A stretch of DNA of 64,000 nucleotides, taken from positions 3,468,168-3,532,167 of the forward strand of contig LT827128.1 in NCBI GenBank assembly GCA_900170005.1, written 5' to 3'. This DNA is from Gordonibacter massiliensis (ex Traore et al. 2017). GTDB lineage: Bacteria; Actinomycetota; Coriobacteriia; Coriobacteriales; Eggerthellaceae. The notes under the pieces were generated by a model. That model saw only the letters and a list, made by a program, of their open reading frames with translations. It was not told where the DNA came from and ran no database searches. A program made the translations under genes and the position numbers. Positions 16 to 56,394 of this stretch are shown piece after piece (within the stretch, counting starts at the first letter, position 1; each line of letters starts with the position of its first letter).

Positions 16-375
16 ATGTGCGATGAGTTTTACAGCCACCGGGCGCATACGCTCGACAGCCAAGAGGCTCGTGCCGTGGAGCGCTCGATCTTCGAACGCC
101 CAGCCTCCCGGAAGGGCAGGAAAAGCGAATTCGAGCGAAAGCCGGTTCTTGCCGCGCCGATCGACCTGTCGATCATCGAGGGCTACTTCAGCGAGAAGCA
201 AGCCGACCAGCCCGGTTCCAACGTTGCCGAGCAAGGTGCTTGCGGCGACGGGGAGAGCGGCCCGGAAACCCCGGCGAATCAGGCTCGGCGATCTGCGGGA
301 CAAGCGCCGGATGCGTTCGCCGCGGGGCACCCGACGCTTGGAGGCAAAGCCGACAGTAAGGAGCGGGGCGAATGA
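16..375 (+). CDS. Unrecognised 119-aa protein heading the AOR operon
   Basis: I do not recognise this protein. It starts with ATG after a near-perfect Shine-Dalgarno (AAGGAGG at 1-7) and ends by overlapping the next gene's start in an ATGA junction, so it is translationally coupled to the Tat ferredoxin and very likely real. It is hydrophilic, with no signal peptide or membrane segment. The first half is rich in Arg and Glu, a central part reads DLSIIEGYFSEKQ, and the Gly/Ala-rich tail looks disordered. Its position first in an operon of complex metalloenzymes suggests an accessory or assembly role, but that is inference. The upstream end of the operon lies outside the window, so more genes may precede it. 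Confidence 0.7.
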   Translation: MCDEFYSHRAHTLDSQEARAVERSIFERPASRKGRKSEFERKPVLAAPIDLSIIEGYFSEKQADQPGSNVAEQGACGDGESGPETPANQARRSAGQAPDAFAAGHPTLGGKADSKERGE

Positions 376-1172
376 CGAAAACAGGACAAAAGGCCCCTCG
401 GCCGCCCGAGGCCGCTGAGAAGGGCGGCGTTTCTCGCCGCCAGTTCCTCGCGGGCGTGGGCGGGTTGGGCGTCGGCGCCCTATTGGGCGGCTCGCTCGCG
501 GCCCTTGCGCTGCCCGACAGCGTGTACGCCGTTCCGGCGAGCCAGGGCTACCTGCTGGTGGACACCAAGAAGTGCGGCGGTTGCGAAAGCTGCATGCTCA
601 CCTGCTCGCTCGTGCACACCGGCAAGGAGAACCTCGCCTTGTCGCGTATCCAAGTGGCGAAAAGCGCGCTCGCCGGCTTTCCCCAGGACTCGGCGCAGTA
701 CCAGTGCCGCCAGTGCCCGTATCCCGAGTGCGTGGAGGCGTGCCCGACCGGCGCCATGCACGCCGACGAGGCCACCGGCGTGCGCACGGTGGACGAGGGC
801 AAGTGCATCGGATGCCAACGCTGCATCTCGGCCTGCCCCTTCACGCCGTCGCGCGTGCAGTGGAACTTCGAGGAGCGCCACGCCCAAAAGTGCGACCTGT
901 GCAAGAACACGCCGTATTGGAATCGCGAGGGCGGCCCCGGCGGCACGCAGGCGTGCGTGGCGGTGTGCCCCATGAAGGCCATCTCCTTCACCGCCGAGCT
1001 TCCCGTGCAATCCGACGAAGGCTACGAGGAGAACATGCGCAACATCCACTGGTCGAACCTGAGCTTTCCCATCGACGACGCGGGAAAGGTCTCGGCGGAA
1101 ACCTATATGCGCGCGAAGGCGGCGAAGCCCGCTGGCGAAGACGCCTCGACGGACTCCGGAAAAATGGCGTAG
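372..1172 (+). CDS. Tat-exported four-cluster ferredoxin subunit, copy 1
   Basis: A 266-aa iron-sulfur electron-transfer subunit of the DmsB/HycB type. A Tat signal lies near the N-terminus (SRRQFLAG at 21-28, then a Gly/Ala/Leu-rich hydrophobic stretch to about 48). Sixteen cysteines in four ferredoxin-like groups (68/71/74/78, 112/115/120/124, 145/148/151/155, 174/177/195/199) fit four [4Fe-4S] clusters. It lies 38 bp upstream of an AOR-family gene and the same pairing recurs at 3920-6794, so it is probably the electron-transfer partner of that enzyme. The AOR has no signal of its own, so the ferredoxin may carry it across the membrane folded, as Tat hitch-hiker complexes do; this is inference. 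It could alternatively be a soluble exported electron carrier. Confidence 0.88.
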   Translation: MTKTGQKAPRPPEAAEKGGVSRRQFLAGVGGLGVGALLGGSLAALALPDSVYAVPASQGYLLVDTKKCGGCESCMLTCSLVHTGKENLALSRIQVAKSALAGFPQDSAQYQCRQCPYPECVEACPTGAMHADEATGVRTVDEGKCIGCQRCISACPFTPSRVQWNFEERHAQKCDLCKNTPYWNREGGPGGTQACVAVCPMKAISFTAELPVQSDEGYEENMRNIHWSNLSFPIDDAGKVSAETYMRAKAAKPAGEDASTDSGKMA

Positions 1173-1210
1173 GCAGACGATGAACGCAACCGCGGACGAG
1201 GAGGCGCACG

Positions 1211-3271
1211 ATGGCCGATAGAGCATACGGCTACGCCGGGAAGATACTGGTGCTGAACCTGGAGGACGAATCCTACGAGACCGTCGACACCGATCCCTAT
1301 GTGGGGGAATGGGTGGGAGGCCACGGCCTGGCCTCGAGGCTGTTCTGGGAGTACTGCGAGGACAAGACCGTCGACGCGCTCGACGACCGGAACGTGATCG
1401 TCATCGCCTCGAACCCCTTCGCCGGAACCATCGTTCCCGCAGGCGGCGGGCGCGTGGAGGTCACCGGTCTCGGGCCCTTCTCCTACCCCGAATGGTACTC
1501 GCGCTCGAGCGTGGGCGGGCGTTTGGGCGGCTCCATGAAGAACGCGGGCTACGACGCGGTGGTGGTGCGCGGCACGGCACCGCGCCGCGTGTGGGTGAAC
1601 GTGGTGAACGGCGACGTGACGTACTGCGACGCCGAAGACCTCTGGGGCAAAGACTCCTGGGAGACGCAGGAGGCCATCTGGGACCGCGTGACGAACAACA
1701 CGCCGCTGGGAGAGTGGTTCGACCTTCCCGGCAACCGCGAAAGCGGCCGCTCGACCTCGCGTCCCGCCGTGTTCGCCATCGGGCAGGCGGGCGAGAACCT
1801 CGTGCGCAGCGCCACGATCACGCACGACGCGAGCCACGTGTCGGGGCAGAGCGGGTTCGGCGCGGTGTTCGGCGCCAAGAACCTCAAGGCCCTCAGCTTC
1901 ATGGGCACGAAGTCCATCGACATCGCCGATCCGGCGCGCCTCGTCGAGCTGCGCCTGGAAATCCAGGAGAAGCTGGGCTACAAGGTGGACGACCCGGTGA
2001 ACGAGGCTCCCGTTCCCCAGGCCGTGCCCCTGTACAGCTCGCTGCTGCACAACCCCGGCGGCGGCACCGTGGGCCAGACCATCGGGCGTCCCGACGGCTG
2101 CCAAGGATGCTACCGCAACTGCCGTGCCATCTACCGCGACCGCATGGGCAACCAGTCCACCTGCAACGCGGCCGCCTACTACACGGCCAGCGGCAAGCGC
2201 GAAGACCAGAAGAGGTGCAACTCCCTGTTGAACCAGCTGGGACTCGACGGCTACGAAACCGACATGCCCGTGTACCTGTACAACCTGTACAAGATGGGCG
2301 TTATGGGCAAAGGCAAGGAGATAGACACCGACCTTCCCTTCGAGAACTACAACAAGTACCAGTTCATCGACACGCTTCTGCATCGCATAGCCAACCGCGA
2401 GGAGATCGGCGAGGACCTGGCCGAGGGGCTCGTGCGCGCCACGATGAAGTGGGGGCGCTGGGACGAGGACAGCAAGGGACTGCTGCGCCGCCCGAACTGG
2501 GGCTACCCCGAGCACTACGATCCGCGCCTCGAGGTCGAGTGGAGCTACGGCTCCATCTTCACGGAGCGCGACATCAACGAGCACGGCATCAACTGGTGCG
2601 TGCACCACAGCGCGCTCGTTCCCATGATGTTCGGCCAAGAGCCCTTCCTCCCCGCCGACAAGCTCGTGGAGCAGGTGGCGAAGGGCACGGGGCTCGAAGA
2701 CCCGCTGTGCTTCGACTACTCAGAGAAGGGCATCTACTCCGACGAGAAGGTGCGCGCCGTGTCGTGGCACCGCCATTACGGGCGCTTCTGGATACAGTCG
2801 ATGGGCCTGTGCGATTGGATGTGGCCGAGCCTGGTCAACTTCACGAACATGACCGACACCGACTACGCCGGCGTTTCGCCCGCGTTCGAGGTGGAGCTGT
2901 TCAAGGCCGTGACCGGCCGTGACGACTTCACGTACGAGAAGAGCCTGGAGTTGGGCCACAAGCAGCTGCTGCTCGACCGTGCCATCTGGGTTTTGCAGGG
3001 GCGCGAGCCCGAGACCGAGCAGCTGGCCGACTACGTGTTCGAGCTGCCCACCGACACGCCTTACCAACTGCCCGTATACGAGAACGGCACGTGGTCGTAC
3101 TCCGACTGCCTCGGCCGCACGCTCGACCGCGGGAGGTTCAAAGACGTGCAGCAGCGTTTCTACGCGAGCGAGGGTTGGAACGAGCGCGGCTACCCGAAAC
3201 GCGAGGTGCTGGAGCAGTTCGGCCTGGCCGACGTGGCCGACGCGCTCGACGCGGCGGGCAAGGGAGCGTGA
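1211..3271 (+). CDS. AOR-family tungsten/molybdenum oxidoreductase, copy 1
   Basis: A 686-aa member of the aldehyde:ferredoxin oxidoreductase family, which uses a bis-pterin tungsten (or molybdenum) cofactor and one [4Fe-4S] cluster. The N-terminal part has the family pattern (YAGKILVLNL at 8-17, GGHGLASRLF at 36-45, SNPFAGT at 67-73). The cluster cysteines are visible as GCQGCYRNC (C297, C300, C304), with the distant fourth in MGLCDW (C534), so cofactor binding looks intact. There is no signal peptide or membrane helix. It is longer than the classical archaeal enzymes of about 605 aa. The substrate cannot be read from sequence: known relatives oxidise aldehydes, reduce acids or act on aromatic thioesters. 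The SD GAGGAGG precedes the ATG. Confidence 0.9.
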   Translation: MADRAYGYAGKILVLNLEDESYETVDTDPYVGEWVGGHGLASRLFWEYCEDKTVDALDDRNVIVIASNPFAGTIVPAGGGRVEVTGLGPFSYPEWYSRSSVGGRLGGSMKNAGYDAVVVRGTAPRRVWVNVVNGDVTYCDAEDLWGKDSWETQEAIWDRVTNNTPLGEWFDLPGNRESGRSTSRPAVFAIGQAGENLVRSATITHDASHVSGQSGFGAVFGAKNLKALSFMGTKSIDIADPARLVELRLEIQEKLGYKVDDPVNEAPVPQAVPLYSSLLHNPGGGTVGQTIGRPDGCQGCYRNCRAIYRDRMGNQSTCNAAAYYTASGKREDQKRCNSLLNQLGLDGYETDMPVYLYNLYKMGVMGKGKEIDTDLPFENYNKYQFIDTLLHRIANREEIGEDLAEGLVRATMKWGRWDEDSKGLLRRPNWGYPEHYDPRLEVEWSYGSIFTERDINEHGINWCVHHSALVPMMFGQEPFLPADKLVEQVAKGTGLEDPLCFDYSEKGIYSDEKVRAVSWHRHYGRFWIQSMGLCDWMWPSLVNFTNMTDTDYAGVSPAFEVELFKAVTGRDDFTYEKSLELGHKQLLLDRAIWVLQGREPETEQLADYVFELPTDTPYQLPVYENGTWSYSDCLGRTLDRGRFKDVQQRFYASEGWNERGYPKREVLEQFGLADVADALDAAGKGA

Positions 3272-3275
3272 TATC

Positions 3276-3905
3276 GTGGCAACCTCGTATGTTGACAAGC
3301 GCGACGCCGCCCGGCTGACGAAGGCCATCTTCAGCAAAAGCCCGGGCGAAAGCGACCCTGCGAATGGAAAAGACGTCTTGGGCACCGAGATTCCGGCGAT
3401 CGAAGCGGATGCGGCCCTGCCCGACGACTACGCCTCTCCCGAGGCGGATCGCCTGTTCCCGCGGCCGACGCCGGAGGAGGCCGAACACAACCTACGCGAC
3501 CTCACCTGGGGGGAGCATATCGTGGCCACCCGCATGGCGGCCGCGCGCGGCAACTCCACCGCCTATCTCTACAGCCTGCAGGAGGCCGCGATCTTCTTCT
3601 TGGACGGGAACTCGGGCGGGGTGACCTTGGGCTCGTCCGGCTCGTTCGCCTGGGTCGACCTCGACCGGTTCGTCGCGTGGATCCGCGACACGGTGGGCGA
3701 CGAGCCGTTCGCCGCCGTGCTGGAGGAGAAGCTGGGCGCCCTCGACGCTTACAACGACAAGATCGAAACGATGCGCCAGCTGCTCGACCTGCGCATGACG
3801 CAGTACATTCCCTACCTCCCCGCCGACGAGGAAGACGATGCGGGTGAAGACGGCGCGTCGGACGCCGACGAGGGTGCGGTCGCAGGCGAAAGCGCCCGCG
3901 AGTAA
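3276..3905 (+). CDS. Unrecognised 209-aa protein between the two AOR pairs
   Basis: I do not recognise a family. Translation probably starts at GTG 3276, four bases after the AOR stop, with GGGAG (3262-3266) inside the AOR 3' end as Shine-Dalgarno; the reading frame stays open upstream only as a shadow of the AOR gene. The protein is acidic and soluble. Residues of about 80-175 look like a folded helical domain (DLTWGEHIVATRM, then SLQEAAIFFLDG and FVAWIRDTVGDEPFA); the last 30 residues are mostly Asp, Glu, Ala and Gly. The size and operon position would suit an enzyme-specific chaperone of the TorD kind, but no TorD signature is visible. Only the first AOR pair is followed by such a gene. 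Confidence 0.8.
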   Translation: MATSYVDKRDAARLTKAIFSKSPGESDPANGKDVLGTEIPAIEADAALPDDYASPEADRLFPRPTPEEAEHNLRDLTWGEHIVATRMAAARGNSTAYLYSLQEAAIFFLDGNSGGVTLGSSGSFAWVDLDRFVAWIRDTVGDEPFAAVLEEKLGALDAYNDKIETMRQLLDLRMTQYIPYLPADEEDDAGEDGASDADEGAVAGESARE

Positions 3906-3919
3906 GGAGACCAGACGAA

Positions 3920-4708
3920 ATGACGAACTCAGGGCACGACGATTCCGCAGGCTCGGTTGCACCGCAGCCGCCAGCGCCCCAAAAGCAATCGGGCGGGATC
4001 TCCCGTCGACAGTTCCTCGCCGGCCTGGGAGGCCTCGGCATCGGCGCCCTCTTGGGCGCCGGCGTCGTGGGCATCGCGCTGCCCGACGGCGTGTACGCCA
4101 TCGAGGCGTCGGGCGGTTATCTGCTGGTGGACTCAAAGAAGTGCGCCGGCTGCCAGAGCTGCATGCTGGCCTGCACGCTCGTGCACAGCGGCAAGGAGAA
4201 TCTGGCGCTGTCGAGGATGCAGGTGCACAAGAACGCGCTGGCCAGCTTCCCCGAGGACATAAGCCAGCACCAATGCCGGCAGTGCCCCGAGCCGTCCTGC
4301 GTGAACGCCTGCCCGGTGGGCGCCATGCACTGCGACCCTGAAACCGGTGCGCGCCTCGTGGACGAGGACCGATGCGTCGGCTGCGAGCGTTGCGTGGAGG
4401 CGTGCCCGTTCACGCCATCGCGTGTGCAATGGAACTTCGAGGAACGGCACGCGCAGAAATGCGACTTGTGCAAGAACACCCCGTACTGGAACCACGAGGG
4501 CGGCCCGAAGGGCGAGCAGGCTTGCGTGTGCGTGTGCCCCATGCAGGCCATCGCGTTCACGAACGAGCTGCCGCAGCAAACCGACCAGGGCTACGACGTG
4601 AACCTGCGCAACGAGCACTTCGCGCGCATGGCGTTCCCCATCGACGACGACGCGGTCGTCCCCGCGCAGGTGTACCTCGACTCGGTCATGCCGAAGCCGA
4701 AGGCGTAA
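3920..4708 (+). CDS. Tat-exported four-cluster ferredoxin subunit, copy 2
   Basis: A 262-aa paralogue of the gene at 372-1172. The Tat motif is at 28-34 (SRRQFLA), followed by a Gly-rich hydrophobic stretch. The same sixteen cluster cysteines are present (75/78/81/85, 119/122/127/131, 152/155/158/162, 181/184/202/206), with additional cysteines at 138 and 204. The segment from about 165 to 190 is almost identical between the copies (CPFTPSRVQWNFEERHAQK shared), as expected for an interface both copies keep. The N-terminal 27 residues are unrelated and Pro/Ser-rich. The SD AAGGAGA precedes the ATG, and an AOR gene follows after 19 bp. The role is electron transfer to or from that AOR, probably on the outer face of the membrane (inference). 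Confidence 0.88.
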   Translation: MTNSGHDDSAGSVAPQPPAPQKQSGGISRRQFLAGLGGLGIGALLGAGVVGIALPDGVYAIEASGGYLLVDSKKCAGCQSCMLACTLVHSGKENLALSRMQVHKNALASFPEDISQHQCRQCPEPSCVNACPVGAMHCDPETGARLVDEDRCVGCERCVEACPFTPSRVQWNFEERHAQKCDLCKNTPYWNHEGGPKGEQACVCVCPMQAIAFTNELPQQTDQGYDVNLRNEHFARMAFPIDDDAVVPAQVYLDSVMPKPKA

Positions 4709-4727
4709 AGGAGAAGGAAGGACCACG

Positions 4728-6794
4728 ATGTCTGACACGAACTACGGCTACGCGGGGAGCATCCTTGTCCTCAACCTGACCGACGAGAGCTACGAGATCA
4801 TCGACAGCGCGCCCTACGTCGCCGAATGGATCGGCGGCCACGGGCTGGCATCGAAGCTGTTCTGGGATTACTGCGAGGACAAGAGCGTGCAGGCGTTCGA
4901 TCCGAAGAACGTCACCGTCGTCGCCGGCAACCCGTTCTCCGGCACGCTCGTGCCGTCGTCGGCCGCGCGCGTGGAGATAACGGGCCTGGGGCCGTTCTCG
5001 TATCCCGAGTGGTACACGCGCTCGAGCATCGGCGGCCGCATCGCCGGCATGATGAAGGCGGCCGGCTACGACGCCTGCGTCGTGCGCGGTCGAGCCGAGC
5101 GCCCCGTATGGGTGAGCGTGGAGAACGACGAGGTGACGTTCCACGAAGCCGACAGCCTGTGGGGAATGGGCACGTGGGACACGCAGGAGGCCGTGTGGAG
5201 CGAAGTGACGCACGGCACGCCCGACGGCGGGTGGTACGAGTTCACGCGCAGCCGTGACGGCGGCCGTTCGGCCGACCGTCCCGCCGTTCTGGCCATCGGG
5301 CCCGCCGGCGAGAACCTCGTGCGCACGGCCACCATCACGCACGACGCCAGCCATGTGGCCGGGCAAAGCGGGCTCGGCGCCGTTTGGGGAGCGAAGAACC
5401 TCAAGGCCCTCAGCTTCATCGGCTCGAAGAGCTTCGACATCGCCGATCCGGCGACGCTCGTCGACCTGCGCATCGAATTGCAGCGCGACTACGGCTTCCA
5501 TGTGGACAACCCCACCATCGAGCTGCAGAGCGTGGCGTACGCCCCCATGGGCGAGATCATCCGCCAGCCCGGCTTCAGCACGCTGTCGTGGAACCTGCGC
5601 GACACCACGGGCCGCCCCGAGGGGTGCCTCGGGTGCTACCGCAACTGCCGCGTGAACGTCAAAGGCCGCATCGGCAACGAGGCCACCTGCAACGCGAGCA
5701 CGTACTACACGGCCTCGGGCAAGCTGGAGGACCAGCTGACCACGAACACGATGCTGAACGACTTGGGGATAGACGGCTTCGAGGTGGACCTCATTCCCTA
5801 CCTGCGCAACCTCAACAAGATGGGCGTCATGGGACCCGGCAAGGACATCGACACCGACCTGCCCTTCGACCAGTACAACACCGTGGCCTTCCCCGAAACG
5901 CTGCTCAAGCGCATCGCCTACCGCGAGGAGATCGGCGACGATTTGGCCGAAGGCCTGGCGCGCGCCGCCATGAAGTGGGGACGCTGGGAAGAGGACACGG
6001 CCACGGGGCTCTTGCAGCGCCCGTACTGGGGCTACAGCATGCACTACGACCCGCGCGTCGAATCGGAATGGGGGTTCGCCACCATTCTGGGCGAGCGCGA
6101 CGTGAACGAGCACGGCCTGAACTGGATCATCCACTGGACGCCGCTCATCTGGACGCGCCTGGGCGACCCGTGGCTTTCCGCCGAGGACTTCGTCACGGAG
6201 ATCACCGAGCTCATGGGCCTGTCCGATCCGAAGTGCCTCGACTTCAGCGAAGAGGGCATGTACTCCGACAAGATGGTGGAAACCATCGAATGGTACCGCT
6301 ACCACGGCCGCTTCTGGATCCAGACCATGGGCATGTGCGACTGGGCCTGGCCGAACCTCGTCAACTTCGTGAACTTCGACCAGGATGACTACGGCGGCGC
6401 CTCGCCCCGCTTCGAGCTGGGCTTCTTCAAGGCCGTCACCGGGCGGGACCTCACCTACGAGGAAAGCCAGGACTACGGGCGCAAGTTCCTCTTGCTCGAC
6501 CGCGCCATATGGATCGAGCAGGGGCGCGAGCGCGAGGACGAGCAGTTCGCCGAGTACATCTACAGCGTGCCCACCGACACCCCCTATTACATGCCCGCCG
6601 TCGAGAACGGCGAGTGGGTGTACAGCCAGAACCTGGGGCGCACGCTCGATCGCGACAAGTTCGAAGCGGTGAAGTCGAAGCTCTACGAGCACGACGGCTT
6701 GAACGAAAAGGGTTATCCGAAGAAGGCCGAGCTGGAGAAGTACGGCTTGGATGACGTTGCGAGGCGGCTCGAGGAGCTGGGCAAGATAGGATAA
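4728..6794 (+). CDS. AOR-family tungsten/molybdenum oxidoreductase, copy 2
   Basis: A 688-aa paralogue of the AOR at 1211-3271, co-linear over its whole length and clearly diverged. Conserved landmarks are YAGSILVLNL at 8-17, GGHGLASKLF, the cluster motif GCLGCYRNC (C300, C303, C307) and MGMCDW (C537). Long substrate-side stretches differ between copies, notably around 255-290 and the region before C537, so the two enzymes may act on different substrates. There is no export signal; the adjacent Tat ferredoxin is the likely partner. The ATG follows a strong GGAGAAGGAAGG ribosome site. It is followed after 2 bp by a cysteine desulfurase, which suggests a sulfur requirement for the cofactor or clusters. 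Confidence 0.9.
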   Translation: MSDTNYGYAGSILVLNLTDESYEIIDSAPYVAEWIGGHGLASKLFWDYCEDKSVQAFDPKNVTVVAGNPFSGTLVPSSAARVEITGLGPFSYPEWYTRSSIGGRIAGMMKAAGYDACVVRGRAERPVWVSVENDEVTFHEADSLWGMGTWDTQEAVWSEVTHGTPDGGWYEFTRSRDGGRSADRPAVLAIGPAGENLVRTATITHDASHVAGQSGLGAVWGAKNLKALSFIGSKSFDIADPATLVDLRIELQRDYGFHVDNPTIELQSVAYAPMGEIIRQPGFSTLSWNLRDTTGRPEGCLGCYRNCRVNVKGRIGNEATCNASTYYTASGKLEDQLTTNTMLNDLGIDGFEVDLIPYLRNLNKMGVMGPGKDIDTDLPFDQYNTVAFPETLLKRIAYREEIGDDLAEGLARAAMKWGRWEEDTATGLLQRPYWGYSMHYDPRVESEWGFATILGERDVNEHGLNWIIHWTPLIWTRLGDPWLSAEDFVTEITELMGLSDPKCLDFSEEGMYSDKMVETIEWYRYHGRFWIQTMGMCDWAWPNLVNFVNFDQDDYGGASPRFELGFFKAVTGRDLTYEESQDYGRKFLLLDRAIWIEQGREREDEQFAEYIYSVPTDTPYYMPAVENGEWVYSQNLGRTLDRDKFEAVKSKLYEHDGLNEKGYPKKAELEKYGLDDVARRLEELGKIG

Positions 6795-6796
6795 CG

Positions 6797-8182
6797 ATGG
6801 GGTTTCCCACCAACCATAGCACCTTCGAGGCGAAGGGCCCGGCGGTGAGGCCGGCAGCGGGCGCGCCGCCGGCCGCCGGCCGCGGGACGGATGCGGGACA
6901 TACGCTCGACCTCGACGCCGTCCTCGCGCAATTCCCCTTGCTCGTGGCTGGTCGACGCGGGGAAAAGCCGCTCGTCTACCTCGACAACGCGGCCACCACG
7001 CACAAGCCGGAATGCGTGCTGTCGGCCCTCGAATACTATTACCGCTGCGCGAACGCGAACGCCGGCCGGGGCGTGTACCCGCTGGCCACGGCGTCGACGA
7101 AGCTGTACGAGGAGGCGCGGCGGACGGCGGCGCTTTTCGTAGGCGCGGCCGAAGACGAGATCGTGTTCACGTCGGGCGCCACCGCGGCGCTCAACCTGGT
7201 GGCGTACTCTTGGGGTATGGAGCACCTGCAGCCTGGCGACGAGGTGGTCCTCACGATGGCCGAGCACCATAGCAACCTGCTGCCGTGGCAGCAGGTTGCC
7301 CGGCTCAAGGGTGCGAAGCTCGTGTACCTGCTGCCCGACGCGCAGGGGCGCATTCCCGACGAGGAGATCGACGCGAAGATCGGGCCCCGCACGAAGATCG
7401 CGGCGGTGGCGCACGTGTCCAACGTGCTGGGAAGCGTGTTCCCCGTGCGGCGCGTTGCCGACGCCGTGCACGCCTACGGCGGCGTGCTGGTGGCCGACTG
7501 CGCGCAGAGCGTCGCGCACCTGCCCGTGGACGTGCGGGCGCTCGATGCCGACTTCCTGGCGTTTTCGGGTCACAAGATGTACGGTCCTATGGGTGTGGGC
7601 GTGCTGTACGGCCGGCGTGAGCTTTTGGCCGGCATGGAGCCTTTGCTGCGCGGGGGAGGCATGATCGAGAGCGTGTTCGAACAGCACGCCGCGTTCGCCG
7701 ACGCGCCTGCGCGGTTCGAGGCCGGCACGCCGAACGTCGCCGGTGCCGTCGGTTTGGCCGAAGCCATGCGGTTCTTGCTGGAGGTGGGATACGACGCCGT
7801 GCGCGCACGCGAGCGGCGCCTGGTCGAGCGCTTGCTGGCGGGGCTGGCGGCGCTTCCCGACGTGCGCGTGCACGGAGCGCCGCACGGGGAGGTTGGGGTT
7901 GCGGGCGGGGGAGCGCCCGAGCCGTCGCGTTGCGGCGCGGTGTCGTTCAACGTGCGCGGCGTGGACGCCAACGACGTGGCAGCGGCGCTTGCTCGCGACA
8001 ACGTGGCCGTGCGCGCGGGCGCCCATTGCGCGGAGCCCCTCGTCCGCTACCTGGGCGAGCGCGCCACGTGCCGCGCCAGCCTCGCCCTCTACAACACCGA
8101 AGAAGACGTCGACCGCTTCCTTTCATCGGTGGAGAACGCGAAGCGCAACGTCTCGCGCATGATCATGGCGAGCATGCACTGA
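6797..8182 (+). CDS. Cysteine desulfurase (SufS/CsdA type) of the AOR operon
   Basis: A PLP-dependent aminotransferase class V enzyme of 461 aa that releases sulfur from cysteine as a protein persulfide. Visible features are the N-terminal LDNAATTHKP, the PLP lysine in SGHKMYGP (K260), and the persulfide cysteine in RAGAHCAEP (C411). The first 45 residues form a Gly/Ala/Pro-rich extension absent from ordinary SufS (about 405-415 aa). The gene starts 2 bp after the AOR stop and belongs to that operon. Sulfuration of a Mo/W cofactor, as IscS does for formate dehydrogenase through FdhD, or cluster assembly for the eight ferredoxin clusters, are both reasonable roles (inference). A second SufS lies at 23174-24418, so this one is probably dedicated. 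Confidence 0.9.
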   Translation: MGFPTNHSTFEAKGPAVRPAAGAPPAAGRGTDAGHTLDLDAVLAQFPLLVAGRRGEKPLVYLDNAATTHKPECVLSALEYYYRCANANAGRGVYPLATASTKLYEEARRTAALFVGAAEDEIVFTSGATAALNLVAYSWGMEHLQPGDEVVLTMAEHHSNLLPWQQVARLKGAKLVYLLPDAQGRIPDEEIDAKIGPRTKIAAVAHVSNVLGSVFPVRRVADAVHAYGGVLVADCAQSVAHLPVDVRALDADFLAFSGHKMYGPMGVGVLYGRRELLAGMEPLLRGGGMIESVFEQHAAFADAPARFEAGTPNVAGAVGLAEAMRFLLEVGYDAVRARERRLVERLLAGLAALPDVRVHGAPHGEVGVAGGGAPEPSRCGAVSFNVRGVDANDVAAALARDNVAVRAGAHCAEPLVRYLGERATCRASLALYNTEEDVDRFLSSVENAKRNVSRMIMASMH

Positions 8183-19781: not shown

Positions 19782-20160
19782 CTCCGCTCCTCTCCTTCGG
19801 TCGTATCCGTTCTTGGCGCGCGTCAGCGCCGCATAGCGGCATCCATTCTAGGATCGTTCGCGGACGGGGGCATCAACATGGCGAGCGGATTTGCCTTTGC
19901 GGAACCGTTTCAACCTTTGCGTATGAAGCCCGCGCGCGTTTCAACATGCGAAGTCGATGCGCAAGCGGCCCGGCGGCGCGAGGATTCGGCTATCGCAAAT
20001 AAGCGAGAAAGGGGGAGGTTCGACCGACTGGCTGGCTGTTCCGCGTGCAACGCGCGCATTGGAGGGCATCGACCGAGAGGGGGAATGCCGAAGACCGACG
20101 CCGTCCGTGCAGTGCAAGGGGCTTTGCACGGAGACCCATGACTACTTGGAGGAGAATTTA
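19782..20160. other. 379-bp gap before the OFA transporter
   Basis: No convincing gene: the open frames here are short and lack ribosome sites. GTGCAAGG and CTTTGCAC at 20114-20130 form a small stem shortly before the transporter start. A promoter for the plus-strand transporter operon must lie here, but no clear -35/-10 pair was found by eye. Confidence 0.35.
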
Positions 20161-21462
20161 ATGGAGCAAAAGAAATCGTTCTACGGTTGGAAGTTGGCCG
20201 TGGTGCTGGGCATTATCTACTTCTGCTCGAGCGCGTTCGTGCTCGCGGCTGCCCAGATCGTGAATCCCATGATGTTCAAGTCGGGCGAGATCCAGATGGA
20301 CGCCACGATGCTCGGCATGGGTTTCACGCTGTTCGTGCTGTGCCAGGGCATCCCCACACCGCTTCTGGGCCAGCTCATTGCGAAGAAAGGCGCCCGTTTC
20401 ACCATGATCATTGGCGGCTGCGTCATGCTGTTGGGCACGCTGGCCATGTCGTTCTTCGTGCATGAGGCGTGGTCGTACTTCCTGTTCTTCGGCGTGCTCA
20501 TGTCCATGGGCTCCATGGCGCTGGGGCAGCTGTCCACCCAGACGGTGGCCGGCAGCTGGTTCATCGCGAACCGCGGCAAGGCCATGACCATCGTCATGGT
20601 TATCGGCGGCGCGGGCTCCATCTTGGCCCCGCAGATCGTCAAGGCCGCCATCGACGCCGCCGGCGGCGCGTGGCAGGCCGGCTGGTACGCACTCATCGCC
20701 GCCGCCCTCATTGGCTTGGTGCTGGCCGTCTTCCTGGTGAAGAACACGCCTGCTTCCATCGGCCAGCTGCCTGACGGCGTTGCCGACAGCAAAGCCGTCG
20801 TCGCCGAGGCCAAAGAGTCGAAGGTGTACAAGAACGCTGACAGCATAACGTATAAAAAAGCCCTCAAAACGCCGGCCATGTGGCTTATCGCCCTTACGTT
20901 GGCTGGAGGCTACACCGCTTTCAGCTTGAACACCTCGCAGGGCGTCATGAACTTCACGCAGCTCGGTTTCGACAACGGCCTTATCGTCACTGCCGTGTCG
21001 GTTATGGGATTCGCCATGCTCACCGGCCGTTTGGTGGTGGGTGTCATATCCGACCGCTTCGAGCCCATCCGCCTCATGGGGCTGTGCGGCGTCATGCTGT
21101 TCGTCGCCATCCTGTTGGGGGCGTTTGCCACGCCGAGCGCGCCGGTCATGATGTTCGGCTACTACATTTTGCTGGGCTTTTTCTTCGGCGCCATCAACAC
21201 GGTCGGCCCCACGGCGCTGGCCAATTACTTCGGCGCGGGCCACTACTCGAAGATTCTCAGCACGGGCATCATGGTGACCACGATCGTGTCCGCTCCCATC
21301 GCAACCATCGTGGGCGCCACGTTCGACGCCACGGGGGCCTGCACGACGGGCTTTCTCATCAGCGCCGGCATCGTGGCCGTTTGCACGATCTGCTCGCTGT
21401 TCGTGCGCCTTCCCAAGAAGGGCTCAGCCGCCGCGGCCGATCAGGACGAGGTGCGCGCCTAG
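20161..21462 (+). CDS. OFA-type MFS transporter
   Basis: A 433-aa membrane protein with 12 hydrophobic helices of the major facilitator superfamily, oxalate/formate-antiporter (OFA) branch. Branch marks are the N-terminal YGWKLAVVLGIIYF and the long helix 4-6 region (AGSWFIANRGKAMTIVMVIG). The conserved inter-helix motif after helix 8-9 is GRLVVGVISDRFEP. The start at 20161 has GGAGG 8 nt upstream; the longer open frame is leader. Substrates of this branch are small carboxylates. It lies 27 bp upstream of a FucI/AraA-like gene and then a SufS gene on the same strand, so the three probably form an operon. Confidence 0.88.
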   Translation: MEQKKSFYGWKLAVVLGIIYFCSSAFVLAAAQIVNPMMFKSGEIQMDATMLGMGFTLFVLCQGIPTPLLGQLIAKKGARFTMIIGGCVMLLGTLAMSFFVHEAWSYFLFFGVLMSMGSMALGQLSTQTVAGSWFIANRGKAMTIVMVIGGAGSILAPQIVKAAIDAAGGAWQAGWYALIAAALIGLVLAVFLVKNTPASIGQLPDGVADSKAVVAEAKESKVYKNADSITYKKALKTPAMWLIALTLAGGYTAFSLNTSQGVMNFTQLGFDNGLIVTAVSVMGFAMLTGRLVVGVISDRFEPIRLMGLCGVMLFVAILLGAFATPSAPVMMFGYYILLGFFFGAINTVGPTALANYFGAGHYSKILSTGIMVTTIVSAPIATIVGATFDATGACTTGFLISAGIVAVCTICSLFVRLPKKGSAAAADQDEVRA

Positions 21463-21489
21463 CGCGCCTTGGCGATAGAGAGGAGAGAC

Positions 21490-23070
21490 ATGAAACTTGC
21501 TGACGAGTTCGAACTGCGCAACAACCGCGAAGTCACGCTCAACGTGCGTCCCATCGAGATAGGCCTGTACCACGACTACGTGTTCGAGGGGCCATGCCGC
21601 TTCGGGCGCGGCGACGAGCTCACGCGCGAGCACGACATGATGGTCATAGAGATGAAGAGCAAGAACGACGAGAAAATGCTGCACGACCTGTTCGACGGCA
21701 TCCCCGGCGTGAACGTCATGGACCAGATCGTCATCAAGCGCGACGAGACGTTCCCGCTGAACGATGCTATGCTCGAGGAGATGGCGACCGATCGCGACGA
21801 CGTGGATCTGTACGTGTTCAACTTCACCGTGTTCGGAGCCGACCTTGCTATCGCGTTCTCGCAGAAGTACGGCAAGCCGTCCATGATCCTGCCCACGCCG
21901 AACAACGACGCCCATATGTCGGCGGCTTATCGCGCACGCGGCCTTGAGATGCATAGCCCGGCAACGCTCGAAGAAGCCAAGAAGACGCTCGTGGCTCTGC
22001 GGGCCTGCAAGGTCATGGCGAACACGCGGGCACTCGTGGTGGTGCGCAACAACTCCGTGCATCCGGTGACGAACTACGATTCGTTCCTCGACCATTTCGA
22101 GGTGACGAAGAAGCTGGGCACGTCGTTCACCTACTACAACCTGCACGAGTTCCTGGACCAGCTGCACAACGTCGCTCCCGACACGAATCCCACGCTGCCG
22201 GGCCGCGTGGCCGACAACATCAACGACGAGGACGAGAAGGTCGTCGCGGCGATGGTGGACGAGTTCATGACGGGCGCAACGGTCTGCGACATGGACCGAG
22301 ACAAGATCGTGCCCTCCATGCGCGCGCACTACTTGGTGAACAAGCTGTTGAAGAAGCTGGACTGCAATGCGTTCGCGGCACCCTGCCCCGATATGTGCGC
22401 CACCCGCCGTCTGAACCATGAGCAGACCACGCTTTGCCTGAACCATACGCTCAACAACGAGAACGGCGTGTGCTCCGCCTGCGAGCAGGACGTGTCGGCG
22501 CTTTTGTCCATGGTGGCCCTGTCCGCCGTGTCGCAGAGCGCACCCTACATGGGCAACACGGTGCCGGTGAAGTTGGACGCCGATGACGAGCTGCGCATCA
22601 AGACGCGCATCATGTTCCGCCCGTATTCGTGCGACGAGGAGACGCCGCGTCTCGAGGAACAGCATGCCGATGCCATCATGTCCATCTATCATGCGGTGCC
22701 GAACCGCCAGTTCAAGGGTTACGATGCCGAGCAGGCTCCCTACGATGTCCGACCGTTCGCCATGGACGGGCGTTGGGGCGCCACCGTGCGCTACGACTTC
22801 AAGCGCGACATCGGCGAGCCCATCACGCTGGCCAAGTTCGATCCCACGTGCTCGAAGCTGCTCGTGGCTCGCGGTACGATCGTGGGCGGCATAGGCGCCT
22901 TGGACGAGAACTGCAGCGAGGGCGTGTTCTTCAGCGTGTCCGACGGCCGCGCGTTCCGCGAGGCCACCATGTGGACGGGCAACCACACGGCGCTCGTGTA
23001 CGGAGATTGGTTCGACGAGATGGTGCTGTTCGCCGAGAGCGTGGGCTTGGAGCCGTTGGCGGTTGGCTAA
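21490..23070 (+). CDS. FucI/AraA-fold sugar-isomerase-like protein
   Basis: A 526-aa protein resembling the L-fucose/L-arabinose isomerase superfamily. The best mark is ACEQDVSALLSMVAL (about 340-355), comparable with the ACEGDxxGALTM metal-site motif of FucI-like proteins, plus a C-terminal beta-rich domain. A cysteine-rich stretch just before it (APCPDMCATRRL, then LCLNHTLNNENGVCSAC) is unusual for an isomerase and might bind metal. The SD AGAGGAGAGAC sets the start at 21490 rather than the ATG 21 bp earlier. Because the surroundings show no sugar pathway and the neighbours are an OFA carboxylate transporter and SufS, I would not assume fucose or arabinose as substrate. Confidence 0.7.
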   Translation: MKLADEFELRNNREVTLNVRPIEIGLYHDYVFEGPCRFGRGDELTREHDMMVIEMKSKNDEKMLHDLFDGIPGVNVMDQIVIKRDETFPLNDAMLEEMATDRDDVDLYVFNFTVFGADLAIAFSQKYGKPSMILPTPNNDAHMSAAYRARGLEMHSPATLEEAKKTLVALRACKVMANTRALVVVRNNSVHPVTNYDSFLDHFEVTKKLGTSFTYYNLHEFLDQLHNVAPDTNPTLPGRVADNINDEDEKVVAAMVDEFMTGATVCDMDRDKIVPSMRAHYLVNKLLKKLDCNAFAAPCPDMCATRRLNHEQTTLCLNHTLNNENGVCSACEQDVSALLSMVALSAVSQSAPYMGNTVPVKLDADDELRIKTRIMFRPYSCDEETPRLEEQHADAIMSIYHAVPNRQFKGYDAEQAPYDVRPFAMDGRWGATVRYDFKRDIGEPITLAKFDPTCSKLLVARGTIVGGIGALDENCSEGVFFSVSDGRAFREATMWTGNHTALVYGDWFDEMVLFAESVGLEPLAVG

Positions 23071-23173
23071 AGCCAACGGTTTGCGGTTTGCCTGTTGGTC
23101 GGGTGCGGGCGCTCTCCGATGGGGGGGCGTCCGCCCTGTTATCATGGGCGCATCCGGTTATGAGGAGGCAGGT

Positions 23174-24418
23174 ATGAACGCCGATACGGCACTCGATTGC
23201 GCGCGCATTCGGGCGGACTTTCCCATTTTGTCCCAAGAGGTGAACGGGCGGGCGCTCGTGTATTTGGATAACGCCGCTACCACGCAGATGCCCGAATTCG
23301 TGCTCGACGCCATCGTTGCCCACTATCATGCCGACAACGCGAACGTGCACCGCGGCATACATACGCTGAGCGAGCGTTCAACGGCGAAGCTCGAAGCGGC
23401 GCGGGAGGCCGTGCGAAGGTTCCTGAATGCGGCCTCGGCGGACGAGATCGTGTTCACGTCCGGCACGACGGCCTCGGTGAACACGGTGGCGCGCGCTTGG
23501 GAAGCCCGGCTCGCGCCGGGGTCGTGCGTGATCGTCACGGCATTGGAGCATCATGCGAACTTCGTGCCATGGCAGCAGGCGTGCGCGCGCTCTGGTGCCG
23601 AGTTCTTCGTGTGCCCGCTTACGGGGACGGGCGACGTTGACCTGGGCGCGTTGGAGGCGCGGCTCGCGAAGGGCGGCGTGTCGATGGTATGCGTGGCGCA
23701 CGTGTCCAACGTGCTGGGATGCGTGGTGCCGGTGGACGTGGTGGCGCGCCTCGCGCACGCGCACGGGGCGGCCGTGCTGGTGGACGCGGCGCAGAGCGTG
23801 CGGCACGAGCGCGTCGACGTGCGGGAGATAGACTGCGACTTTTTGTGCTTCTCGGGGCACAAGGTGCTGGGACCTACGGGTATCGGCGTGCTGTACGGCA
23901 AGAAGGAGCTGCTGGATCGGATGGAGCCTGCCTGGTACGGCGGCGAGATGGTGGCGCAGGTTGCGACCGCGCTCACGACGTTCGAGGAGCCTCCGCTGCG
24001 TTTCGAACCCGGTACGCCAAACTACGTGGGCGCCATCGGTTTGGCTGCGGCGCTCGAATACCTCGAGGGATTGGGACGCGATGCCGTGGCCGCGCGCGAA
24101 GCCGATCTCGTGGCGAACGCCGAGGAGCGCCTGCGTGGCGTGGTCGGCGTCCAGGTAGTGGGAGCGCCCGCGCGGCGAGCTGGCTGCGTGTCGTTCACGG
24201 TGGAGGGCGCGCAACCGTTCGATGTAGCCATGCTCATGGATAAGCTGGGCGTGGCCGTGCGCTCGGGCTCGCAGTGCGCGCAGCCGCTGTTGGATGAGAC
24301 GCTGGGCATTTCCAAGGTGGTGCGGGTATCGCCGGCGTTCTACAACACGCATGCAGAGATCGACGCCTGCATCGAGGCGCTCGAGCGTGTCGTGCCGCTG
24401 GTGAGCAGGGGTCGGTAG
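23174..24418 (+). CDS. sufS: Cysteine desulfurase SufS
   Basis: A 414-aa group II cysteine desulfurase of normal length. LDNAATTQMPEFV is near the N-terminus, the PLP lysine is in SGHKVLGPTG (K230), and the persulfide cysteine is in RSGSQCAQP (C368). GAGGAGG precedes the ATG by 7 nt. It delivers sulfane sulfur for FeS clusters, normally through SufE, and a SufE gene lies 130 bp away on the opposite strand, facing this one. No sufBCD is in the window. It differs clearly from the desulfurase at 6797-8182, which has an N-terminal extension and a different cysteine loop. Confidence 0.92.
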   Translation: MNADTALDCARIRADFPILSQEVNGRALVYLDNAATTQMPEFVLDAIVAHYHADNANVHRGIHTLSERSTAKLEAAREAVRRFLNAASADEIVFTSGTTASVNTVARAWEARLAPGSCVIVTALEHHANFVPWQQACARSGAEFFVCPLTGTGDVDLGALEARLAKGGVSMVCVAHVSNVLGCVVPVDVVARLAHAHGAAVLVDAAQSVRHERVDVREIDCDFLCFSGHKVLGPTGIGVLYGKKELLDRMEPAWYGGEMVAQVATALTTFEEPPLRFEPGTPNYVGAIGLAAALEYLEGLGRDAVAAREADLVANAEERLRGVVGVQVVGAPARRAGCVSFTVEGAQPFDVAMLMDKLGVAVRSGSQCAQPLLDETLGISKVVRVSPAFYNTHAEIDACIEALERVVPLVSRGR

Positions 24419-24548: not shown

Positions 24549-24965
24549 CTAGCGGGCGCGCTCGGCTTGGGTGAAGATGGCGGACGCGATGGCGCGCATG
24601 CCGTTGCGGCGTTGGGTTTCGAACAGGTCGTCGAGGCCGGCGCGTGCGGGCAGGTTGAAGGGGCAATTCAGAATGTCGGCGGGCGTGCGCTCGGAAAAGA
24701 CGATCTGCATGACGCGCAGGACGCCGCGCACGATGAGCGTGTCGCTCTCGAACGCGAACGAAAGCGTGCCGTCGTCGTTTCGCTCGACGATCATCCACAC
24801 GCTGGACTGGCAACCCTCCACTTTCGCTGCTCGCTTCTTGTCCTTTTCGGACATGACGGGCAGCTCCGCCGCCAATCCCAGCAAATACTCGTAGCGGAAA
24901 AAGGGGTCGTCGAGCTCCTCGAAGTCGGCGACGAGCGCGTCCTGCGCCTCGCATGCTGGGTTCAT
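24549..24965 (-). CDS. sufE: SufE-type sulfur acceptor
   Basis: A 138-aa SufE family protein that takes persulfide sulfur from SufS and passes it to the FeS scaffold. The acceptor cysteine is in KVEGCQSSVW (C52), and the family pattern continues with ADILNCPFNLPAR and GLDDLFETQRRNGMRAI. GAGGAGA lies before the ATG at 24965; an earlier in-frame ATG at 25016 has no ribosome site. It is convergent with sufS across a long hairpin, so the two are not in one transcript despite being functional partners. Confidence 0.92.
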   Translation of the reverse strand: MNPACEAQDALVADFEELDDPFFRYEYLLGLAAELPVMSEKDKKRAAKVEGCQSSVWMIVERNDDGTLSFAFESDTLIVRGVLRVMQIVFSERTPADILNCPFNLPARAGLDDLFETQRRNGMRAIASAIFTQAERAR

Positions 24966-25078
24966 GGGCGTCTCCTCGATGGACTCTGGGACGCCGTTCG
25001 ACGTCCCAGAGTCCATTATATCGTAGGATGATCAAAGCGAGGAAAGCATCCGTTTCGACCCATGCTCCCACGGAACTC

Positions 25079-50904: not shown

Positions 50905-50996
50905 GGTATATCCGAGCATGGATCGGCCGAGTTCAGGGGGCTGGTCGATCGGTGCCGTTGGGACGATGTCAGGAAAAGAACCAGGGAAGGGAACCT

Positions 50997-51926
50997 ATGA
51001 AGAAGCACATTCGCATTGCGGTGGCGGCGGCTTGCGCGTTCGCCATGGTGGGCGCGTTCGCGCTGTTCGGCTGCTCATCCAACGAGCAGAAGGCCGACGA
51101 GCCCAAGGCCGACGAGCCCAAGACCGAGCAGCACGAGGCCGTGGAGCTGCAGCTGTTCGCGGCCAACTCGCTGTCGAAGGCCATGGACGCCGTGCAGGAG
51201 CTCTACACGCAGGATCACGATTGGGTCACGTTCAAGGACACGCAGTACCTGTCCTCGGGCGAGCTCAACGAGCAGTTGGCCGGCGGCGCGTACGCCGACG
51301 TGCTGATCTCCGCGTCGAAGGGCAAGATGGACGATGCCGTGAGCGCGGGCTACGTCGACGAGGCCACGCGCTTCGACATGTTCAAGAACGACCTGGTCAT
51401 GGTCACGGGCGAGAGCTCCGAGCTGGCTACCAAGTACGGTGTCGACCAGAGCTTCACGCTCGAGGACGTGGCTTCCGGCGACTACGCCGTGGCCGTGGGC
51501 GACGACTCCGTGCCCGCCGGCAACTACGCCAACCAGGCGCTCTCCACGGTGAACTGCTTCGTCGATCCCGACGGCAAGACCGGTTCCGACAGCGCCGGCA
51601 AGGCCAACGGCACCGACGCCTACGCGGGCACCCCGCTCGCCGGCAAGGTGAACGCCCAGACCTCCGTGGGCAACGTGTGCAAGCAGGCCGAGTCGGGCGC
51701 CGTGGACGTGGCGTTCGTGTACAGCTCTGACGTGTTCCGCTTCGGCGGCGTGAAGGTTATCGGCGTCGTGCCGAGCGACACGCACAAGAAGATCATCTAC
51801 CCGGCCGCCATCTGCAAGGATTCCAAGCAGGCCGAGGCCGCCCAGGAGTTCCTCGACTGGGCCACCACCAACGCCGATGCCAAGAAGCTGTGGCAGGAGT
51901 GGGGCTTCGAGCTCGTTACCGAGTAA
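50997..51926 (+). CDS. modA: Molybdate/tungstate-binding lipoprotein ModA
   Basis: A 309-aa extracytoplasmic oxyanion-binding protein. A signal peptide with lipobox-like FALFGCSS (C at about 26) is followed by a KADEPKADEPK spacer. ModA features are ELQLFAANSLSKAMD, DVLISASKGKMDDA, VPAGNYANQAL and SGAVDVAFVYSSD. It delivers molybdate or tungstate to ModB/ModC for the pterin enzymes of this window. GGGAAGGG lies before the ATG. A perfect 14-bp hairpin between modA and modB could keep modA expression higher than the rest. Confidence 0.93.
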   Translation: MKKHIRIAVAAACAFAMVGAFALFGCSSNEQKADEPKADEPKTEQHEAVELQLFAANSLSKAMDAVQELYTQDHDWVTFKDTQYLSSGELNEQLAGGAYADVLISASKGKMDDAVSAGYVDEATRFDMFKNDLVMVTGESSELATKYGVDQSFTLEDVASGDYAVAVGDDSVPAGNYANQALSTVNCFVDPDGKTGSDSAGKANGTDAYAGTPLAGKVNAQTSVGNVCKQAESGAVDVAFVYSSDVFRFGGVKVIGVVPSDTHKKIIYPAAICKDSKQAEAAQEFLDWATTNADAKKLWQEWGFELVTE

Positions 51927-51955
51927 CGATTCCCGCACATACGGTATCATGACCA

Positions 51956-51986
51956 GGAGAGGATGGGCGAAGCGCCCATCCTCTCC
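51956..51986 (+). terminator. Hairpin between modA and modB
   Basis: A perfect 14-bp stem (GGAGAGGATGGGCG, AAG loop, CGCCCATCCTCTCC) 29 bp after modA, without a U-run. It may protect the modA mRNA end or attenuate read-through into modB. Confidence 0.6.
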
Positions 51987-52003
51987 GTGCGATAAGGAAA
52001 GCC

Positions 52004-53533: not shown

Positions 53534-53549
53534 TGGGGACCTTTGTGGC

Positions 53550-53656
53550 GGGAGGTCGGCCGATGCCCAGTCGCTCGGCAGTCCTGCTCGCACGAACAGC
53601 CCACTGGGCTGTTCGGCTCGTGCGGAACTCGCTTGGTGGGCATCGGCCGACCTCCC
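53550..53656. repeat. Long hairpin between modB and modC (perfect 19-bp arms)
   Basis: Perfect arms 53550-53568 and 53638-53656. The core reads CCCAGTCGCTCGGCAGTCCTG, abbreviated here, and contains CGAACAGCCC-ACT-GGGCTGTTCG. It begins 17 bp past the modB stop. Confidence 0.88.
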
Positions 53657-53735
53657 TTCGCGCGATTCCGTTTGCTGAAGACCTGCGGAATCGTCGGCTG
53701 GATGAGGGGTTCGACCTGCGAGGTTTGCCGTGGGT

Positions 53736-53917
53736 TGTCATCCTGAGCATGCGACAGCCCAGCGGACCGTCGCGCTCCCGAACATGCGAAGCGAGCGCAG
53801 GAAGGCGTCGCGAAGCGATGACGTATTGCGTACCGCCCTCTGTCATCCAGAGCGGAGCGCGCAGCGCGCCACCCTCTGTCATCCTGAGCGGAGCGCGTAG
53901 CGCGAAGTCGAAGGATC
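53736..53917. repeat. Cluster of three TGTCATCC-type interspersed repeats
   Basis: Three copies in direct order begin TGTCATCCTGAGCATG (53736), TGTCATCCAGAGCGGAGCG (53841) and TGTCATCCTGAGCGGAGCG (53877), the last ending GTCGAAGGATC. The same unit occurs at the start of acpS. It fills the gap before modC; no gene is seen in 53657-53963. Confidence 0.8.
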
Positions 53918-53963
53918 CCGTGCGGCGTCAGCCGAAAACCTTTGGGAAGGAGCCGATGCCGGC

Positions 53964-55076: not shown

Positions 55077-55133
55077 TCCGGCCGCGCGAATGGCGGGCCT
55101 TTTGCCTGTTCGGCCAGATTGCGCCTCGCGAGC

Positions 55134-55153
55134 ATAGGATCATGTCCTATAAT
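55134..55153 (+). promoter_or_regulatory. moaA -10 element with overlapping inverted repeat
   Basis: TATAAT at 55148-55153 lies 28 bp before the moaA start. ATAGGA (55134-55139), TCATG, TCCTAT (55145-55150) is an inverted repeat that overlaps it. No good -35 is seen, which would suit an activator-dependent or repressed promoter. Confidence 0.45.
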
Positions 55154-55181
55154 ATTCTCCCATGAGAAGGGAAGGGGCCCT

Positions 55182-56183: not shown

Positions 56184-56311
56184 GGAGCAGTTTCCGCTGC
56201 TCGCCGCGACGTGCATGCGGGCGGCGGGCCCCGCGCCGGGCGGCCAGCAGGCCGCCCCGACGGAGGCTTCCATTGTCCGGACGTGCGTCGCGAGCGGCGA
56301 AATCCCCGTAG

Positions 56312-56331
56312 GGGCGATCTCCAGATCGCCC
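56312..56331. repeat. Short palindromic repeat, copy 2
   Basis: GGGCGAT, CTCCAG loop, ATCGCCC in the moaA-moaC gap, matching the unit at 46889-46908. Another stem (GGGCGGCC-AGCA-GGCCGCCC) lies at about 56238-56257. Confidence 0.7.
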
Positions 56332-56394
56332 GGCGCGTGCGAGCGCAACAGCAAGAAGAATGCGGCGAGCAGCCGTGAGAGCTAAGGAGAACCC

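Follow-up and report, generated by a model that had tools for sequence, protein, structure and literature searches.

A tandem operon of Gordonibacter massiliensis predicted to encode an outward-facing redox complex with Cys-ligated AOR-family subunits

The window analysed here is a 64,000-nucleotide stretch of the Gordonibacter massiliensis contig LT827128.1 (G000:C1:3468168-3532167; the genome is one contig of 3.95 Mb). An operon at its 5' end encodes two ferredoxins with a twin-arginine translocation (Tat) signal, each paired with a signal-less catalytic subunit of the aldehyde ferredoxin oxidoreductase (AOR) family, together with an orphan protein, here called W, and a SufS-type cysteine desulfurase. 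The operon probably specifies a membrane-anchored, outward-facing redox complex with two alternative catalytic versions, in which the AOR subunits would be Cys-ligated enzymes that do not act on aldehydes and would be matured by W and SufS.

The operon lies on the + strand and has the gene order cytochrome b, 119-residue protein, TatFd1, AOR1, W, TatFd2, AOR2 and SufS. The window edge cuts the operon within the gene of the b-type cytochrome (286 residues, PF01292; full gene G000:C1:3467321-3468181, locus L005 9322-10182), of which only the 3' end is included (1-14). Its stop codon, at window base 14, is located 1 nt before the gene of a 119-residue soluble protein with no assigned function (16-375), whose ATG is preceded by an AGGAGG resembling a ribosome-binding site. 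TatFd1 (372-1172) and TatFd2 (3920-4708; 67% identity to TatFd1) are the predicted small subunits of AOR1 (1211-3271; 686 residues) and AOR2 (4728-6794; 688 residues), respectively, and AOR2 shares 61% identity and its Cys ligands with AOR1. W (3276-3905; 209 residues, GTG start) separates the two pairs, and SufS (6797-8182) ends the operon, with a PadR gene downstream on the opposite strand. The first-pass annotation had described a tight operon of Tat ferredoxin and AOR pairs, two unrecognized proteins and a desulfurase, with overlapping junctions or gaps of 2-40 bp. All of these genes were found where it had placed them, and the junctions from the 119-residue gene to SufS consist of a 4-nt overlap and then 38, 4, 14, 19 and 2 nt. 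The extent of the operon required revision, as its start lies upstream of the window and includes the membrane cytochrome b. The arrangement does not represent two full copies; two ferredoxin-AOR pairs are served by one cytochrome, one W and one SufS.

The catalytic subunits contain the AFOR_N (PF02730) and AFOR_C (PF01314) domains above curated cut-offs and thus belong to the AOR/WOR family. An AlphaFold2 model of AOR1 (mean predicted local distance difference test (pLDDT) score of 81) matches 9mqx_D with a VIA Z score of 34.6 and a deviation of 2.7 Å over 544 residues. Residue Cys318 of AOR1 is invariant in 14 of 14 aligned diverse members, including YdhV (Cys336). In a HMMER profile alignment, Cys322 of BamB occupies the same column, where the aldehyde AORs show GPEYE; the match comes from this alignment, and in MAFFT the loop of BamB is a few columns out of register. 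The position of the PfAOR E313 residue is taken by Ala, Thr or other residues in AORs of the window type, which differ in this respect from aldehyde AORs, with their conserved Glu and no protein ligand. Four further invariant Cys residues (AOR1 297, 300, 304 and 534) fit a 4Fe-4S cluster. A Cys ligand on the metal is confined to the clades of YdhV (Cys336) and BamB (Cys322), both of which lack the second-shell residues of aldehyde AORs, and the characterized AORs without a Cys ligand oxidize aldehydes (PMC12096430).

The references of the AOR tree were YdhV, BamB and four further solved AOR/FOR proteins, the PDB references being represented by their N-terminal 411-426 residues. The 25 window-type sequences form one deep clade (support 100/100), apart from YdhV, BamB and the aldehyde AORs. 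YdhV groups with another AOR of the window genome, encoded at locus L007 (100/100), and BamB forms a long branch on the reference side. From their sequences, the window AORs appear to represent a Cys-ligated branch of the AOR/WOR family with an active site nearer to those of YdhV and BamB. Because Cys318 is present and the Glu of aldehyde AORs is absent, aldehyde oxidation by these enzymes is unlikely. A reductase or another non-aldehyde redox enzyme seems more likely than an aldehyde oxidase, and the name "AOR" is misleading for them.

Both ferredoxins contain an SRRQFL Tat signal that includes a single hydrophobic stretch and probably ends in a VYA cleavage site; 16 cluster Cys residues follow, which compose four 4Fe-4S motifs in TatFd1. 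The PDB matches of the ferredoxin profile at E<=1e-15 are exclusively AOR-type small subunits (8c0z_C, 6x6u_B, 6x1o_B and 9mqx_E). These proteins derive from Aromatoleum AOR, Pyrococcus WOR5 and bifurcating AOR, and each is bound to an AOR large subunit in its structure, which provides a structural precedent for the AOR-ferredoxin contact. All of the AORs begin straight at the N-terminal domain without a signal, the twin-arginine signal is found on the ferredoxin at all loci except the sister pair L048/L054, and TatC is present in the window genome. A signal on one subunit, none on its partner and a genomic TatC together make up the pattern of a Tat hitch-hiker complex. The operon cytochrome matches Ni_hydr_CYTB (E=1.2e-20), contains approximately five hydrophobic segments and is weakly similar to YdhU. 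The sister modules L048 and L054 (100/100) have neither the Tat signal nor the cytochrome; all other family modules examined have both. In a spirochaete (L017 5953-15518), genes for the large and Tat-signal small subunits of a NiFe hydrogenase are located directly upstream of TatFd-AOR, and a molybdopterin-binding protein and a ModABC-like transporter are encoded downstream. This arrangement would couple H2 and the AOR at the outer face. The concerted lack of Tat signal and cytochrome in L048/L054 and the Tat hydrogenase of the spirochaete neighbourhood argue for export of the whole complex. The AOR would thus be co-exported with TatFd to an outward location, and its electron route would probably run via cytochrome b to menaquinone.

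Membrane proteins of ~200 residues, 56% identical to each other, are encoded near the modules that lack the Tat signal (L048 11023-11703 and L054 4882-5490), and a MerR-like regulator is also found near each of these modules. The membrane protein had no match in Pfam, NCBIfam or PDB. Its resemblance to SatP/acetate transporters was confined to 31% over 55 residues (E=0.056, one pairwise comparison) and was dropped as substrate evidence.

The window AOR type was identified in 14 of 138 Eggerthellaceae genomes, representing 8 of 48 genera, with a total of 17 modules. This recurrence at 17 loci in 14 genomes excludes a chance arrangement. W is found in 16 of the 17 modules, and the remaining one, from G. 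pamelaeae, has an apparent assembly gap there. SufS is likewise present in 16 modules (partial in G. pamelaeae and absent beside L045), and the cytochrome and the Tat signal each occur in 15 modules, which are the same for both. A tandem arrangement of two ferredoxin-AOR pairs was also observed in another genus (G020/L046), whose AOR1 is 90% identical to that of the window. Modules with a single pair show the order Fd-AOR-W-SufS or W-Fd-AOR-SufS. Outside the family, homologous ferredoxin-AOR pairs are encoded in a Syntrophaceae bacterium, a spirochaete, two Campylobacterota, a Chromatiales bacterium and the archaeon Methanohalarchaeum; the two Campylobacterota contigs have the cytochrome, ferredoxin, AOR and W genes without SufS. 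An even sample of 296 genomes from the phylum of the window contains the AOR type in two genomes only, both of them Eggerthellaceae.

A second operon of the same genome (L006) encodes a cytochrome b, TatFd, AOR3, W and SufS. AOR3 is 59% identical to AOR1, and the two W proteins share 48% identity over 122 residues. This module (L006 5570-14186; G000:C1:3917.6-3926.2 kb) is located between an ftsQ-like gene and ftsZ in the opposite orientation, within a division and cell-wall cluster, and the position is kept in Gordonibacter and two Eggerthella-group genomes. The 119-residue protein was seen only in the tandem operon of the window species. In two other Gordonibacter genomes, relatives of it (35-37%) are encoded next to this PadR gene at the corresponding locus (L075 5656-6036 and L076 5564-5944). 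As both loci keep the relative and PadR without the tandem operon, the matching PadR locus across Gordonibacter looks like an insertion or loss site.

W was detected in 13 of the 138 genomes, all among the 14 AOR carriers; in the one carrier without it, a sequence gap falls at the site (Fisher p=2e-17 for W-AOR co-occurrence across the 138 genomes, phylogeny ignored). W is a strict marker of the module. It has no match in Pfam or NCBIfam and contains no signal, transmembrane segment, cofactor motif or conserved Cys. The core of W is confidently predicted (pLDDT 90-98 at residues 61-110 and 131-180), and no significant match was obtained among PDB folds, including a TorD/NarJ-type chaperone fold (best Z 4.2, E above 2). 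No homology to YdhW was found, and a function as a sulfur carrier was rejected because W1 contains no Cys. The W profile revealed no homologue in the Syntrophaceae, Methanohalarchaeum and Spirochaetes loci, its distant matches being already at 19-39 bits.

The window genome encodes at least five SufS-like proteins, including the module SufS, which exceeds the TIGR01979 cut-off and has an intact RAGAHC motif in its active-site Cys loop. Modules of the Gordonibacter and Eggerthella type, among them those of Enteroscipio rubneri and G020, encode nine SufS proteins that group in a single clade (99/98), to the exclusion of three further SufS proteins of the genome that were tested. By this tree position, the module SufS is evidently a distinct paralogue in most lineages. 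Another SufS of the window (23063-24418; loop RSGSQC) faces a SufE gene on the opposite strand (24549-25016) and is located behind genes for an MFS transporter and a 533-residue protein with a weak sulfoquinovose isomerase match. An assignment of window 19957-23070 as SufB/SufD was rejected, as the region encodes an MFS transporter and an unidentified protein.

Genes resembling modA, a permease gene, modC, moaA and moaC are clustered at window positions 50952-56892; ModA was confirmed by TIGR01256 and the permease by PF00528, and ModC, MoaA and MoaC were read from the sequence only. A PF12849 search for TupA as a sign of tungsten identified no TupA and matched only a PstS-like protein. The metal leans toward molybdenum over tungsten on these gene contents. 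At L070 901-1854, a PstS-like phosphate-binding protein with swapped halves (circular permutation) is encoded upstream of a PstC-like gene.

In the probable mechanism, the signal-less AOR would fold in the cytoplasm with a bis-pterin Mo/W cofactor and its cluster. The folded AOR would then dock on its four-cluster Tat ferredoxin, and the pair would be exported by Tat as a hitch-hiker complex. Outside, the catalytic subunit would be connected with the menaquinone pool through the ferredoxin and the shared b-type cytochrome. W and the SufS paralogue would act in the cytoplasm and provide sulfur to the metal cofactor, the clusters or both before export. The first-pass annotation had proposed outward-facing enzymes of a respiratory type that are exported through Tat hitch-hiking, and this view gains support from the homology of the ferredoxins to AOR small subunits, the operon cytochrome b, the modules that lack Tat signal and cytochrome together, and TatC. 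A desulfurase dedicated to the module, also proposed there, is supported by the paralogue clade and the operon position of SufS. The AOR identity holds at the level of the AOR/WOR family, but the enzymes are apparently not ordinary AORs, given their Cys-ligated branch nearer YdhV and BamB. Several points weigh against the mechanism as a whole. The AOR1 model has low confidence at the active-site loop (pLDDT below 50), which leaves alignment as the basis for Cys ligation, and a ligand Cys as in YdhV and BamB is by itself no proof of a reductase. Only one sister pair lacks the Tat signal together with the cytochrome, which probably reflects one evolutionary event. The monophyly of all module SufS proteins is neither shown nor rejected (p-AU 0.23), and neither L045 nor the non-Eggerthellaceae loci have an adjoining SufS, which is hence dispensable in places.

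PF01292 cytochromes are the quinone-side subunits of FdnI-type dehydrogenases, which counts in favour of an outward-facing aldehyde dehydrogenase that delivers electrons via cytochrome b to menaquinone in the manner of formate dehydrogenase-N. The AOR fold (VIA Z ~34 to aldehyde AORs) and the common occurrence of aldehydes in the gut point in the same direction. Such an enzyme is nevertheless quite unlikely, as the window AORs have the metal-ligand Cys, lack an equivalent of E313 and form a clade apart from all aldehyde AORs in the tree. Moreover, CsWOR41L, a class V relative, oxidized 0 of 46 aldehydes in an assay of the partly purified large subunit alone (PMC13328260). It is very unlikely that the AOR stays in the cytoplasm and works with a soluble ferredoxin while the Tat ferredoxin is exported alone to serve another partner. 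The lack of a signal peptide on the AORs and the apparently wholly cytoplasmic sister modules L048/L054 would suit this division. However, TatFd belongs to the AOR small-subunit group, the ferredoxin and AOR genes are paired at every locus and were duplicated as a unit, and the Tat signal and the cytochrome are absent together in L048/L054.

W and SufS are proposed to form a dedicated maturation pair that would act on the cofactor or clusters before export, because XdhC/NifS4 of xanthine dehydrogenase and FdhD/IscS of formate dehydrogenase pair a dedicated factor with a desulfurase for cofactor sulfuration (PMC10609526). No chaperone for YdhV is known (PMC9103625). It is possible that SufS is instead an additional general desulfurase, which supplies sulfur only for the Fe-S clusters of the complex and has no part in AOR-cofactor maturation, since each ferredoxin-AOR pair contains five clusters and needs ~20 inorganic sulfides, the module adds one SufS to the other copies of the genome, and the operon encodes no SufE/SufU partner. 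A general function is harder to reconcile with the distinct clade of the module SufS, its last operon position in 16 of 17 modules and the two precedents for cofactor sulfuration. A purified class V WOR large subunit, moreover, was accompanied by the desulfurase IscS, although the authors deemed the latter unrelated (PMC13328260). It is doubtful that W is no chaperone but a structural component of the complex, exported or membrane-bound. W occurs in every ungapped Eggerthellaceae module, more steadily than SufS, and also in Campylobacterota loci, but signal, transmembrane segment, cofactor motif and conserved Cys are all absent from it, and no W was found in the Syntrophaceae, Methanohalarchaeum and Spirochaetes loci, to the extent that a profile with distant matches at 19-39 bits can show. 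A more specific version of the maturation proposal, which we consider unlikely, is that the Cys-ligated AORs carry a terminal Mo/W sulfido ligand, which W and SufS as a dedicated pair would install before the enzymes are exported by Tat. They would then represent a third independent lineage of sulfurated molybdoenzymes, with W as a novel type of cofactor chaperone; such a ligand is also present, on their own pterin, in formate dehydrogenase and periplasmic nitrate reductase.

Among approximately ninety AOR/WOR clades, a function is available for a handful, and none of the Tat-linked (class V) enzymes has been assigned a reaction (PMC13328260). The operon defines a separate, putatively exported branch in gut Eggerthellaceae, Campylobacterota, spirochaetes and an archaeon, and displays the helper genes that accompany it. 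It may explain the inactivity of purified large subunits of this general type, from which the ferredoxin and possibly W-SufS are missing. The co-purification of IscS with a class V WOR (PMC13328260) may not be accidental, and the operon is a reason to look again.

Several known systems share parts of the module. The glucocorticoid 21-dehydroxylase cluster Elen_2451-2454, the steroid system that the first-pass annotation had mentioned, also combines a molybdopterin enzyme with a ferredoxin in Eggerthellaceae, but it does not resemble the operon, as it encodes FdhD, a ferredoxin, a molybdopterin oxidoreductase and an SPFH protein, with no AOR, cytochrome b, W or SufS (PMC11835702). XdhC/NifS4 and FdhD/IscS resemble the proposed W-SufS function in the use of a dedicated maturation protein with a cysteine desulfurase, but the sequence of W shows no relationship to the families of the searched libraries, and its role is a proposed one. 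Formate dehydrogenase-N and the periplasmic NiFe hydrogenases share outer-face Tat export through hitch-hiking, an Fe-S subunit and a PF01292 cytochrome b with the proposed complex, whereas their catalytic subunits are unrelated to the window AORs. Aromatoleum AorAB(C) and Pyrococcus WOR5 likewise consist of a large subunit and a four-cluster small subunit, and AorA and the small subunit of WOR5 are the best PDB matches of TatFd, but both systems are cytoplasmic and aldehyde-oxidizing, without a Tat signal or Cys ligand. Class II benzoyl-CoA reductase BamB(C) has the Cys metal ligand (C322), a ferredoxin-type partner and no aldehyde-AOR Glu in common with the window enzymes. BamB lies outside the window clade, however, and the window operon contains Tat export signals and cytochrome b instead of bifurcating Bam subunits.

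The Escherichia coli YdhYVWXUT system, a class V WOR (clade 41) of unassigned function, resembles the window module in its Cys-ligand AOR large subunit (YdhV C336), Tat-type ferredoxin and b-type cytochrome (PMC13328260). The window AORs share the Cys of the YdhV clade but are placed in a separate clade (100/100) with 28% identity to YdhV. No homologues of YdhW, YdhX or YdhT were found in the module loci, which encode W and SufS instead. A true YdhV-type class V locus is present elsewhere in the same genome (L007 3148-10880; G000:C1:2215.6-2223.4 kb) and encodes a YdhV-like AOR next to a divergent operon of a YdhY-like Tat ferredoxin, a PhsA-like molybdopterin subunit, an NrfC-like ferredoxin and an NrfD-like protein. 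Class V in Coriobacteria has been described with a transmembrane subunit and an uncharacterized pyranopterin subunit (PMC13328260), a gene content that appears to fit L007 rather than the cytb-Fd-AOR-W-SufS module. Clade membership of the large subunit apart, the module displays the class V combination of a Tat-signal small subunit and an extra membrane subunit, and class V WOR is the nearest described kind.

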